64,000 nt of DNA from the NCBI RefSeq assembly GCF_030816505.1, contig NZ_JAUSYB010000001.1:806001-870000 (forward strand), in the 5' to 3' direction. The translations under genes and the position numbers were made by a program. The notes below the pieces were generated by a model that saw nothing but the letters and a program-made list of their open reading frames with translations, was not told the origin of the DNA and searched no databases. Positions 399 through 43,432 of the stretch are shown here, in pieces; positions within the stretch are counted from its first letter, which is position 1; every line of letters begins with the position of its first letter. The stretch comes from Microbacterium sp. W4I20. GTDB lineage: Bacteria; Actinomycetota; Actinomycetes; Actinomycetales; Microbacteriaceae.

Positions 399-1550
399 TC
401 AGACGGTGACGACCTGGGCGGTGCCGAGAGGCGCCGCGGGGCCCATCTCCGCGGCGATGCGGTTCGCCTCTTCGATCAGCGTGGCGACGATGTCCGCCTC
501 GGGCACCGTCTTGATGACCTCACCCTTCACGAAGATCTGGCCCCTGCCGTTGCCGGAAGCGACACCGAGGTCAGCCTCGCGCGCCTCGCCGGGACCGTTC
601 ACGACGCAGCCCATCACGGCCACTCGCAGCGGCACGGTCATGTCCTTGAGGCCCTCGGTCACGTCTTCCGCCAGCGTGTAGACGTCGACCTGCGCGCGCC
701 CGCAGGACGGGCACGACACGATCTCGAGCTTGCGCTCCCGCAGGTTCAGCGACTGCAGGATCTGATGGCCGACCTTGACCTCTTCGGCGGGCGGGGCGGA
801 CAGCGAGACACGGATGGTGTCTCCGATGCCCTCGCTGAGCAGAATGCCGAACGCCGTGGCGCTCTTGATCGTTCCCTGGAACGCGGGCCCGGCCTCGGTC
901 ACCCCGAGGTGCAGAGGCCAGTCCCCCATCTGCGCGAGCTGACGGTAGGCCTGCACCATGATCACCGGATCGTTGTGCTTGACCGAGATCTTGAAGTCAT
1001 GGAAATCGTGCTCCTCGAAGAGCGATGCCTCCCAGCGCGCGCTCTCGGCGAGCGCCTCGGGAGTCGCCTTGCCGTACTTCTGCAGCAGACGCGGGTCGAG
1101 CGATCCGGCGTTCACGCCGATGCGAAGGGAGACTTCGGCGTCTTTCGCGGCCTTGGCGATCGCGCCGACCTGATCGTCGAACTTGCGGATATTCCCCGGG
1201 TTGACGCGAACCGCAGCGCACCCGGCATCGATCGCCTGGAACACGTACTTCGGCTGGAAGTGGATGTCGGCGATCACCGGGATCTGGCTCTTCTTCGCGA
1301 TGATGTGCAGCACATCCGCGTCTTCCTGCGTCGGCACCGCCACGCGCACGATCTCGCAGCCCGATGCCGTGAGTTCGGCGATCTGCTGGAGGGTGCCGTT
1401 GATGTCGGTCGTCTTCGTGGTCGTCATCGACTGCACGCTGACGGGGGCATCTCCTCCCACCAGCACCTTGCCGACCTTGATCTGGCGGGACTTGCGGCGC
1501 GGGGCGAGGACGACGGGGACCTTCGGCATCCCAAGATTCACTGCTGGCAC
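399..1550 (-). CDS. ispG: 4-hydroxy-3-methylbut-2-en-1-yl diphosphate synthase (flavodoxin), IspG/GcpE
   Basis: Penultimate enzyme of the MEP isoprenoid pathway: reductive conversion of MEcPP to HMBPP in the cytosol with a [4Fe-4S] cluster. The 383-residue length is normal for the short bacterial form. An N-terminal TIM-barrel region ([26 protein letters not shown]) is followed by the cluster domain with SCPSCGR (Cys280, Cys283) and [10 protein letters not shown] (Cys315, Glu322), the three cysteines and glutamate that ligate the cluster. The GTG start at 1550 is favoured because TAGGCT lies exactly six bases upstream, as in several other starts here, which implies leaderless translation. rseP and dxr, usual partners in Actinobacteria, lie further along the same strand. 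Confidence 0.97.
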
Positions 1551-1643: not shown

Positions 1644-1649
1644 TAGTTT
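1644..1649 (+). promoter_or_regulatory. -10 element (TAGTTT) for the trp leader transcript
   Basis: TAGTTT lies seven bases upstream of the leader-peptide ATG at 1657, so the predicted transcription start is at or within one base of that ATG. No Shine-Dalgarno sequence could then precede it. A -35 hexamer is not obvious. Confidence 0.5.
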
Positions 1650-1656
1650 TCACCCC

Positions 1657-1692
1657 ATGCTCGCGAACGTCACCTGGTGGCCCGCCTCCTAG
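1657..1692 (+). CDS. Trp-rich leader peptide of a transcription attenuator
   Basis: An 11-residue open frame, MLANVTWWPAS, ends in TAG and has tandem Trp codons at 1675-1680. It sits just before a set of alternative hairpins and a U-tract terminator, and upstream of a chorismate-amination enzyme. This is the classic layout of ribosome-mediated tryptophan attenuation: a ribosome stalled at TGG TGG for lack of charged Trp-tRNA would mask the first hairpin arm and allow the anti-terminator to form. The ATG sits directly at the predicted transcription start, so translation is probably leaderless. The symbol trpL would be by analogy only. Confidence 0.85.
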   Translation: MLANVTWWPAS

Positions 1693-1743
1693 GCGGTGTG
1701 TTCGCGTTCCCACGAATTCAGACCGCCTCCGGGGCGGTCTTTT
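1682..1743 (+). terminator. trp-type attenuator: pause hairpin, anti-terminator and terminator
   Basis: Segments 1 and 2 pair as CCGCC (1682-1686) with GGCGG (1692-1696) around the leader stop codon. Segments 3 and 4 pair as GACCGCC (1721-1727) with GGCGGTC (1733-1739) and are followed by TTTT (1740-1743), an intrinsic terminator. Segment 2, AGGCGGT (1691-1697), is exactly complementary to segment 3, ACCGCCT (1722-1728), which gives the 2:3 anti-terminator. Ribosome stalling at the two Trp codons (1675-1680) would cover segment 1 and favour 2:3. Confidence 0.85.
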
Positions 1744-1780
1744 CGTTGAGCCGAGCCGGAGCCCTGCACAGGAGACATCG

Positions 1781-3664
1781 ATGACCCTCTCACGACTCGC
1801 CGAGCTCAGCGCCGACCCGGCGGCATCCTTCGTGCTCATCGCACGCGACGGCGCCGACACCGTCGAGCTCCTCACGGGCGATGTGATCGATGTCGATCTG
1901 CTCGGCGACATCCCCCTCGACATCGACGGCGTGCCACGCGAGGTCTTCGCGCTGGTTCCGTATCGCCAGGTGCGAGAGCGCGGGTTCGTCGCCCAGGAGG
2001 ACGGCGCGCCGCTGCGATGCCTGATCGTGGACGAGCACGATCACCTCTCCACCTCCGAACTGATCGAGGCGCTCCCGTCCGCACCGGTACCGCTGCACGA
2101 CGACGGCTTCGACATCGCGGACGCGGATTACGCGACGATCGTCGAGAAGGTCATCGCCGAGGAGATCGGCCACGGCGAGGGCGCCAACTTCGTCATCCGA
2201 CGCGACTTCACGGCCCGCATCGACGCCGACGATCGGACGGCCGCACTCACCTGGTTCCGGGCTCTGCTGACGCATGAGCGCGGCGCCTACTGGACGTTCG
2301 CGGTGTTCACGCCGGGGCACATCGCCGTCGGGGCGAGCCCCGAGGCGCACGTGGTCGCCCGCGGCGGGGTCGTCACGATGAACCCGATCTCCGGCACCTT
2401 CCGCCACCCGGCCGGCGGCGCGACCCGGGACACCCTCGTCGAATTCCTGTCCTCGACGAAGGAGACCGAAGAGCTCTTCATGGTCGTCGACGAAGAGCTC
2501 AAGATGATGAGCGCGGTGTGTTCGGACGGTGGTCGGATCACCGGCCCTCATCTGAAGGAGATGTCGCGCCTCACCCACACCGAGTACATGCTCCGCGGGC
2601 GCAGCACGCTCGATCCCCGCGACATCCTTCGGGAGACGATGTTCGCACCGACGGTCACCGGATCGCCGATGCAGAACGCCTGCGCGGTCATCCGTCGCCA
2701 CGAGAGGAAGCCCCGTGGCTACTACTCCGGTGTCGCGGCCCTGTTCACCCCGAACGCGGAGGGCGGCCACGATCTCGATGCACCGATCCTGATCCGCACC
2801 GTCTATCTGAACGACGGCGCACTGAGCGTGCCCGTCGGGGCCACGCTGGTGCGGCACTCCGACCCGCTCGGCGAGGTGTCCGAGACCCACGGGAAGGCCG
2901 CCGGCGTGCTGGGCGCGATCGGTGCGATCGACCGCGATCGGGTGGCGGAGGCACGCAGCGATGCCGATGCCCCGGGCGACGAGCGCGCTCTCGCCGACGA
3001 CCCGACCATCGCCGACCTGCTCTCGTCGCGCAACGCCCGCCTCGCGGACTTCTGGCTCAATCCGCAGGGCGACGACCTCGACGGGCCGTTCGCCGGACGC
3101 ACCGCCGTGGTCGTCGACGCGGAGGACCGATTCACCACGATGCTGGCCCACCAGCTGCGCCACCTCGGCCTCTCCGTGACGATCGGCGCCTGGAGCGATG
3201 TCCAGGACGGCGACCTGGCCGCCGCCGATCTCGTGGTGGCGGGACCCGGTCCCGGCGATCCCCGCGATGCCGGAAGCCCTCGTATCGCCCGCATGCGGGA
3301 GGTCGTGGCCGGACGCCTCGACGCGGGCGCTCCGCTCCTCGCCGTGTGCCTGAGTCACCAGATCCTCGGCGACCGGCTCGGCATCGAGTTGATGCCCCTG
3401 GATGCTCCGCATCAGGGGCTGCAGAAGTCGGTTCCCGTGTTCGGCGAGGATGCCTCGATCGGCTTCTACAACACCTTCACCGCACGGGTGGCGCCGGGGA
3501 CGACGAACGTCGGCCCCGCCGAGGTGTCAGCGGATCCCGGCTCCGGAGACGTCTACGCACTCCGCGGCCCGCGCTTCGCATCCGTACAGGGGCACCTCGA
3601 GTCGATCCTGTCCCGCGACGGCATCCACACGCTCGAGCGACTCGTCCGCCACGCACTCGCCTGA
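1781..3664 (+). CDS. PhzE-like fused anthranilate / 2-amino-2-deoxyisochorismate synthase (synthase + glutamine amidotransferase)
   Basis: A single 627-residue chain joins a chorismate-binding synthase half (about residues 100-400) to a class I glutamine amidotransferase (about 440-627). The amidotransferase has VVAGPGPGDP, LLAVCLSHQ with nucleophile Cys523, and a late GHLES expected to hold the catalytic His/Glu. Length and order match phenazine PhzE, which makes ADIC from chorismate and glutamine; related actinobacterial proteins are annotated as anthranilate synthase family. No phz genes are nearby. The ATG at 1781 is chosen for the GGAG eight bases upstream and its place just after the Trp attenuator; the frame runs further upstream through the leader without support. 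Trp control argues for anthranilate rather than phenazine supply, but the product cannot be settled from sequence alone. Confidence 0.85.
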   Translation: MTLSRLAELSADPAASFVLIARDGADTVELLTGDVIDVDLLGDIPLDIDGVPREVFALVPYRQVRERGFVAQEDGAPLRCLIVDEHDHLSTSELIEALPSAPVPLHDDGFDIADADYATIVEKVIAEEIGHGEGANFVIRRDFTARIDADDRTAALTWFRALLTHERGAYWTFAVFTPGHIAVGASPEAHVVARGGVVTMNPISGTFRHPAGGATRDTLVEFLSSTKETEELFMVVDEELKMMSAVCSDGGRITGPHLKEMSRLTHTEYMLRGRSTLDPRDILRETMFAPTVTGSPMQNACAVIRRHERKPRGYYSGVAALFTPNAEGGHDLDAPILIRTVYLNDGALSVPVGATLVRHSDPLGEVSETHGKAAGVLGAIGAIDRDRVAEARSDADAPGDERALADDPTIADLLSSRNARLADFWLNPQGDDLDGPFAGRTAVVVDAEDRFTTMLAHQLRHLGLSVTIGAWSDVQDGDLAAADLVVAGPGPGDPRDAGSPRIARMREVVAGRLDAGAPLLAVCLSHQILGDRLGIELMPLDAPHQGLQKSVPVFGEDASIGFYNTFTARVAPGTTNVGPAEVSADPGSGDVYALRGPRFASVQGHLESILSRDGIHTLERLVRHALA

Positions 3665-43359: not shown

Positions 43360-43432
43360 GCCTCCGTAGCTCAGTGGATAGAGCGCCGGTTTCCGGTACC
43401 GTAGGTCGCAGGTTCGACTCCTGTCGGGGGCA
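43360..43432 (+). tRNA. tRNA-Arg (anticodon CCG)
   Basis: A 73-base cloverleaf: acceptor GCCTCCG/CGGGGGC, D-arm GCTC/GAGC with A20, anticodon loop TTCCGGT giving CCG (reads CGG), T-arm GCAGG-TTCGACT-CCTGT, discriminator A. The anticodon stem has a C-U mismatch at its base (27-43). CCA is not encoded. Confidence 0.95.

Follow-up and report, generated by a model that had tools for sequence, protein, structure and literature searches.

The locus raises two questions: whether a short open reading frame with tandem Trp codons, lying upstream of a gene for a fused chorismate-binding and amidotransferase protein, governs that gene by tryptophan attenuation; and whether the encoded enzyme supplies anthranilate for tryptophan or ADIC for secondary metabolism. 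From the sequence of the window (the whole 64,000-nucleotide stretch of Microbacterium sp. W4I20 that was analyzed) and its comparison with relatives, it is highly likely that the element is a classical ribosome-mediated Trp attenuator on a leaderless transcript, controlling a single-gene unit for the sole recognizable anthranilate synthase. The element is a Microbacterium member of the Streptomyces-type trpE attenuators, real but largely ordinary.

Architecture of the leader region

A first-pass annotation of this DNA described an 11-codon peptide with tandem Trp codons, a set of 1:2, 2:3, and 3:4 hairpins, a T-run, and a 627-residue fused gene, all of which are borne out by direct reading of the sequence (Table 1). 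By their pairing, the three hairpins would exclude one another. The fold of positions 1657–1750 has a z of −3.0, with 1 of 200 dinucleotide shuffles equally good. Between 1400 and 2000, where 0.4 terminator-like matches are expected, there are two, and the 3:4 hairpin accounts for one of them. Two WW mini-ORFs of 6–14 codons occur in the window, and only trpL is accompanied by a −10 element and a terminator; among the 17 WW mini-ORFs in 20 first-order random sequences of 64 kb, a −10 element at the trpL spacing is never seen. With two mismatches allowed, the WW-stem pattern has a single occurrence in the window, and 100 shuffles gave none. Immediately 5′ of the −10 element, at 1628–1642, lies an inverted repeat, CACACCGGCGGTGTG, which by eye is not kept in relatives.

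Table 1. Features of the trpL–fused synthase locus (window coordinates)
Feature	Position	Strand	Basis and remarks
ispG	399..1550	−	Divergent from the fused gene, with the leader in between
−10 element TAGTTT	1644..1649	+	Read from the sequence; ends 7 nt 5′ of the leader ATG at 1657; TAnnnT spacing kept in relatives
Leader peptide trpL, MLANVTWWPAS + stop TAG	1657..1692	+	Predicted leaderless; ATG CTC GCG AAC GTC ACC TGG TGG CCC GCC TCC TAG (11 codons + stop); Trp codons 1675–1680, stop 1690–1692
1:2 pause/protector structure	1662..1706	+	Outer stem 1662–1668/1700–1706 and inner hairpin 1682–1686/1692–1696; minimum-energy fold, pair counts in 61 leaders
Region 1, CCGCC	1682..1686		Enclosed by the outer stem 1662–1668/1700–1706
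Region 2, GGCGGT	1692..1697		Sequence reading
Region 3, GACCGCC	1721..1727		Sequence reading
Region 4, GGCGGTC	1733..1739		Sequence reading
2:3 antiterminator	1691..1728	+	AGGCGGT 1691–1697 with ACCGCCT 1722–1728, plus a small inner helix; fold
3:4 intrinsic terminator, AGACCGCC / GGCGGTCT + T-run	1720..1743	+	Sequence, fold, terminator scan, covariation; T-run 1740–1743
Shine–Dalgarno AGGAG of the structural gene	1770..1774	+	Sequence
Fused anthranilate synthase, putative TrpE(G) of Streptomyces type, 627 aa	1781..3664	+	Pfam PF00425 + PF00117; similarity to PhzE 3r74; relation to Streptomyces copies

Conservation of the leader

Leaders were surveyed by seeking WW mini-ORFs up to 450 nt upstream of each fused gene. 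The WW codons were the search criterion, so their invariance within the alignment is by selection, and the evidence lies in the fraction of loci that have them. The 11-codon WW leader is present at 45 of the 46 loci in Microbacterium; the exception, L008, has 100 nt of upstream contig and shows the 3′ part of the element. Residues 2–6 of the peptide vary across these loci while the 11-codon WW ORF is kept; of the 45 leaders, 43 begin with ATG and 2 with GTG. Other genera of the Microbacteriaceae carry a leader at 17 of 18 loci. No WW leader was found upstream of L072, in a 1.4-Mb genome (G104), though its fused gene is the apparent sole synthase; regulation may have been lost there. The WW frames of two loci, L050 and L054, were judged spurious, leaving both without a credible leader.

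A set of 75 leaders from Microbacteriaceae and more distant genomes (omitting L050, L054, and L055, the last from G061 and bearing a WW leader) was examined for promoter and ribosome-binding signals. With spacings of 5–9 nt tried, all 75 have a TAnnnT hexamer at 6 (n = 39) or 7 (n = 36) nt before the start codon, and only 4 have an SD-like tetramer. Given this spacing, trpL is probably leaderless. The consensus promoter scan gave no sigma-70 match, so the −10 call is based on conservation; the earlier statement that a ribosome site would not fit is valid on condition that the transcript begins at the ATG or right beside it, as −10 conservation suggests. With its fixed −10 spacing and only 11 codons, the conserved leader would be a convenient small system in which to study attenuation that dispenses with a ribosome-binding site.

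RNA structure and proposed mechanism

In a structural alignment of 61 leaders (45 from Microbacterium and 16 others, with 1 duplicate dropped), 98.4% of cells in the 3:4 terminator helix are paired and 3 pairs covary; 20 cells are changed on both sides, as against 6.1 in shuffles, and the covariation score exceeds that of all 500 shuffles. The 2:3 antiterminator is paired in 95.1% of cells, nearly invariant, and shows no covariation in the 61 leaders; 15 of 96 cells of this helix are unpaired in the leaders from other genera. The 1:2 structure is 81.4% paired; its covariation score is higher than in any shuffle, but 216 of the 500 shuffles have at least as many covarying pairs. Its outer stem is kept in Microbacterium and mostly gone in other genera (40 of 106 cells).

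Folded alone, positions 1691–1730, which would be free with a ribosome stalled at the Trp codons, form the 2:3 hairpin (−17.3 kcal/mol), and positions 1704–1743, corresponding to a ribosome at the stop codon, form the terminator (−16.1 kcal/mol). The full free RNA, including region 4, prefers the terminator over the antiterminator; the antiterminator must therefore win by timing, as in classical attenuators.

From these computed parts and their conservation we infer the transcription start, the stalling, and the response to Trp. RNA polymerase would start at the leader ATG or right beside it, and a ribosome would load straight onto the 5′ end, without a Shine–Dalgarno sequence, and read the 11 codons. 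With plentiful Trp-tRNA it would reach the stop codon and mask region 2, whereupon the 3:4 hairpin would form and transcription would terminate at the T-run. With scarce Trp-tRNA it would stall on TGG TGG, masking region 1 and leaving region 2 free; the 2:3 hairpin would then form and prevent the terminator, the synthase would be made, and anthranilate, the presumed product, would pass to TrpD. Stall and footprint positions of the ribosome follow the textbook.

An intrinsic terminator is plainly there, and it might merely end spurious upstream transcription, the WW mini-ORF being no regulator. This seems very improbable: ispG is divergent, so that there is no upstream gene in need of terminating; 45 of 46 Microbacterium loci keep the WW ORF despite the varying residues; the distance from −10 to start codon is fixed; and a like element precedes a trpS-like gene (see below). 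Control mainly by translational coupling or by a trans-acting peptide has a precedent in peTrpL, the S. meliloti leader peptide reported to act in trans, but we find it scarcely credible here, where a complete set of alternative hairpins with a T-run is present and the structural gene has its own Shine–Dalgarno sequence outside the hairpins. Classical attenuation remains the preferred reading.

Covariance model and Rfam searches

A covariance model built from the 61 leaders was searched in 58 genomes, and in the genome of origin its single match at E ≤ 0.001 is the trpL site. The 35 Microbacterium genomes that were searched all give a match at the leader, as they must, since they belong to the training set (the match in G023 is partial, at a contig end). 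Among the 23 genomes from other genera, 4 match, two of them weakly. The other two, G061 and G059, were not in the training set; the match in G061 (44.8 bits) lies upstream of its fused gene, and that in G059 (36.9 bits) covers a leader, MLTTRRSMQWWPA*, upstream of a trpS-like gene, which we take to encode tryptophanyl-tRNA synthetase. This leader and gene (locus L127, in a genome of the same order) are on the minus strand, with the gene at 889–1851. Weak second matches occur in several relatives (G007, G010, G015, G017, G020, G026, G050, G069); a second match in G009 (C12) was rejected as a terminator-like hairpin next to a tRNA-like 3′ end, with no leader.

A search against 4227 Rfam families gave Trp_leader (RF00513; 29.2 bits, E 0.00035) as the best match to the leader, over the full length of the model (positions 1–100). 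The score is below the gathering score of 41, and no family matches the leader at the gathering threshold. The only Rfam match above threshold in the window is a tRNA gene at 43360–43432.

Comparison with known attenuators

Passages of PMC8079986 describe a leaderless Trp leader in S. lividans, TrpL1 (MFAHSTRNWWWTAHPAAH), with hairpins and a U-rich stretch before the monocistronic trpE SLIV_27120, and portions of PMC1262725 cover trp attenuators in Streptomyces reported since 1998–2005. The novelty implied by the first-pass annotation is lower in light of these precedents. The Microbacterium element resembles the Streptomyces attenuators in having a Trp leader, predicted to be leaderless, with hairpins ahead of a homologous fused gene, and differs in its 11 codons and two Trp residues, as against 18 codons and three Trp in S. 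lividans TrpL1. A DNA search for the exact TrpL1 peptide recovered 24 loci, and every one of their titles names Streptomyces. In 22 of them the window protein has a homologue encoded 3′ of TrpL1, in some cases only in part because the stretch ends, and the other two stretches end within 400 nt. We infer that SLIV_27120 is the fused gene. Full-length matches between the window protein and its Streptomyces homologues are about 44–50% identical. The loci of one large-genome family have leaders of the type MFAxSxxxWWWTAxPAA, a close match to S. lividans TrpL1. Unlike the Streptomyces comparison system, Microbacterium shows no other TrpE.

Lin et al. (1998) reportedly described a trpE attenuator of S. 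venezuelae, and Ashenafi et al. (2015) are said to have described a fused anthranilate synthase of the same species: a one-chain enzyme in a genus with attenuated relatives, whose sequence link to the window protein is presumptive. Our literature search found no paper joining Microbacterium, leader peptide, tryptophan, and attenuation; Korolev et al. (2015), reportedly on actinobacterial Trp attenuators, may include Microbacterium. Searches did not find SCO2117 and anthranilate synthase together, and for Microbacterium, phzE, and anthranilate they returned a single paper, on Pseudomonas. Overall, the first-pass proposal of Trp attenuation with a leaderless leader is well supported by comparison, through the 45 of 46 loci, the terminator covariation, the model matches, Streptomyces TrpL1, and the −10 spacing.

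Identity of the fused synthase

The fused protein has a chorismate-binding domain (PF00425) followed by a class-I glutamine amidotransferase domain (PF00117), the order also found in the phenazine ADIC synthase PhzE (3r74), which is its closest solved structure (534 bits, residues 27–626). It falls under the cut-off for all 25 NCBIfam models shown of 38, TrpE-clade3 (TIGR01815) included; proteins of that rhizobial type are also synthase–amidotransferase fusions, and a leaderless trpL is known in S. meliloti, but the window protein, at 144 bits against a cut-off of 739, is not a member. Among 120 relatives listed, 13 are named phzE, and the rest are called chorismate-binding protein or anthranilate synthase, with many nameless.

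The genome of origin (G000, 99.99% complete) contains three chorismate-binding genes: the fused gene, an isochorismate synthase, and a PabB-like gene with a PIKGT motif that scores 310 bits against the pabB cut-off of 328 and may, as far as its sequence goes, have a dual role. The genome has trpD and yields no PhzD match at E ≤ 1e-5; the fused gene is flanked by ispG and an RseP-like protease gene, with no adjacent PhzD or phz genes. The fused gene is the only recognizable anthranilate synthase in this genome, and the presence of trpD together with the absence of another TrpE points to anthranilate as its product. These data favor the earlier suggestion of anthranilate supply for tryptophan. 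Its alternative, an uncharacterized use of ADIC, finds no support in this genome, and ADIC use by the fused enzyme appears unlikely.

The pattern extends across the genus. The fused gene is present in 117 of 119 Microbacterium genomes; the 2 in which it was not found are drafts, 88% and 90% complete. TrpE was detected at E ≤ 1e-95 in a single genome (G655, 489 bits), in which the fused gene is also present. The fused gene thus seems to serve almost all of Microbacterium as the sole anthranilate synthase.

Relationship to PhzE

In a draw of 396 genomes from across the phylum, 20 have the fused gene. Leaders with WW or WWW precede the gene at 13 of the 20 loci outside the Microbacteriaceae; a PhzD-like gene lies just upstream at 5 of the 7 loci that lack one and, within the flank examined, at none of the 13. 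Six plasmid loci with PhzD-like matches (unannotated in the Rhodococcus locus) likewise have no WW leader. Within Microbacterium, PhzD matches were obtained in 31 genomes; 29 of these have only weak ones (≤51 bits), which were taken as other isochorismatase-family proteins, and matches above 200 bits occur in 2 of 119. One of the two, G662, has at L151 (C1:1314706–1315329 onward) a second fused copy (42% identity) right after PhzD, with no WW leader, alongside the attenuated gene, and its two copies offer an internal control for the distinction between PhzE and TrpE(G). Together with the 5 phylum-draw loci and the 6 plasmid loci, this makes 0 of 12 PhzD-linked copies with a WW leader, unlike the window gene. 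The division between leader and PhzD neighbor is not clean: several copies have neither trait, and G007 is an exception, having a PhzD-like gene (L152, C1:961363–961962; 205 bits, 51% identity) with no fused gene alongside and a sole fused gene that bears the leader.

A tree of 60 proteins, including 14 of the 46 Microbacterium loci and leaving out L071 and two partial proteins, places the leader-bearing (43) and PhzD-linked (11) rows on opposite sides of one branch with support of 95/95, a count that omits six rows with neither trait (L050, L053 with only 22 nt upstream, L054, L072, L094, L096) in a tree with long branches (L096, L097, L102, L094, and others). All 43 leader-bearing copies have Pro335 and none of the 11 PhzD-linked ones does, a difference that may reflect descent alone. 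The His of the HTEY motif aligns with a His in the lyase region of TrpE, presumably His398 in Salmonella. In the alignment, the catalytic motifs do not separate leader-bearing from PhzD-linked copies, and passages of PMC5958127 state that protein sequences do not reveal why PhzE stops at ADIC.

That silence of the sequences leaves room for a true PhzE, a secondary-metabolism ADIC synthase that happens to be under Trp control, a reading favored also by the closest solved structure and the 13 phzE names, and by G007, in which the attenuated enzyme might feed the PhzD-like protein. We consider it improbable, on the basis of the neighborhood, the PhzD search, and the tree rather than active-site residues: the genome of origin has no PhzD match at E ≤ 1e-5 and the genus few strong ones, none of the 12 PhzD-linked copies carries the WW leader, and without the fused gene no clear anthranilate synthase would be left, although trpD is present. 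The first-pass annotation had set the locus against PhzE-like enzymes of secondary metabolism, and this contrast is mistaken, its label "PhzE-type" being misleading. The fused protein resembles PhzE because PhzE is closely related to the fused TrpE of Streptomyces type, and the tree parts leader-bearing from PhzD-linked copies.

The gene called in databases "chorismate-binding protein," or sometimes "phenazine biosynthesis protein PhzE," is therefore, as judged from sequence comparison, most likely the Trp-pathway anthranilate synthase of the genus Microbacterium. Such a reassignment would amend reconstructions of the pathway and false predictions of phenazine synthesis, and a WW leader as opposed to a PhzD neighbor would serve as a simple genomic marker of TrpE(G) versus PhzE. 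A midpoint root suggests that PhzE is nested in the leader-bearing group. When outgroups are used, a very long branch leads to the root and the base is poorly supported, support for the PhzD-linked group drops to 83/49, and a single clade of leader-bearing genes is compatible with the data (p-AU 0.575). The tree neither shows nor excludes an origin of PhzE from an attenuator-controlled Trp enzyme, whereby a duplicate lost the trp leader, gained a PhzD neighbor, and came to stop at ADIC; we offer this scenario tentatively, as a possibility on the doubtful side. If it is true, setting the two groups side by side, for instance at Pro335, could reveal what determines whether anthranilate or ADIC is made.

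Anthranilate synthases elsewhere in the family

In a draw of 150 genomes from the family, the fused gene occurs in 20, and 12 of these also carry a canonical TrpE; sole-synthase status is thus not general outside Microbacterium. The other 8 have only PabB-level matches to the TrpE model (G000, G034, G104, G122, G125, G127, G192, G196), with paralogues checked individually in G104, G122, G125, and G127. A TrpE-model match better than 1e-95 is absent in 15 of the 150 genomes. That such genomes are simply without a synthase was considered and rejected: 8 of the 15 have the fused gene, and 4 more (G097, G177, G150, and G212, the last with an interrupted frame) have another fused TrpE(G)-like gene, rhizobial-type in look. 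The remaining TrpE-less genomes are G092, without trpD; G138, 75% complete; and G200, in 290 contigs.

For the four rhizobial-type frames, no WW leader was found in the 250 nt preceding the frame or in its first 200 nt. Two of these genes, both from one genus, were scored against TIGR01815, at 877 and 867 bits. At L134, L140, L141, and L143, a rhizobial-type fused TrpE(G)-like gene replaces TrpE in two genera of Microbacteriaceae, a third solution within the family.
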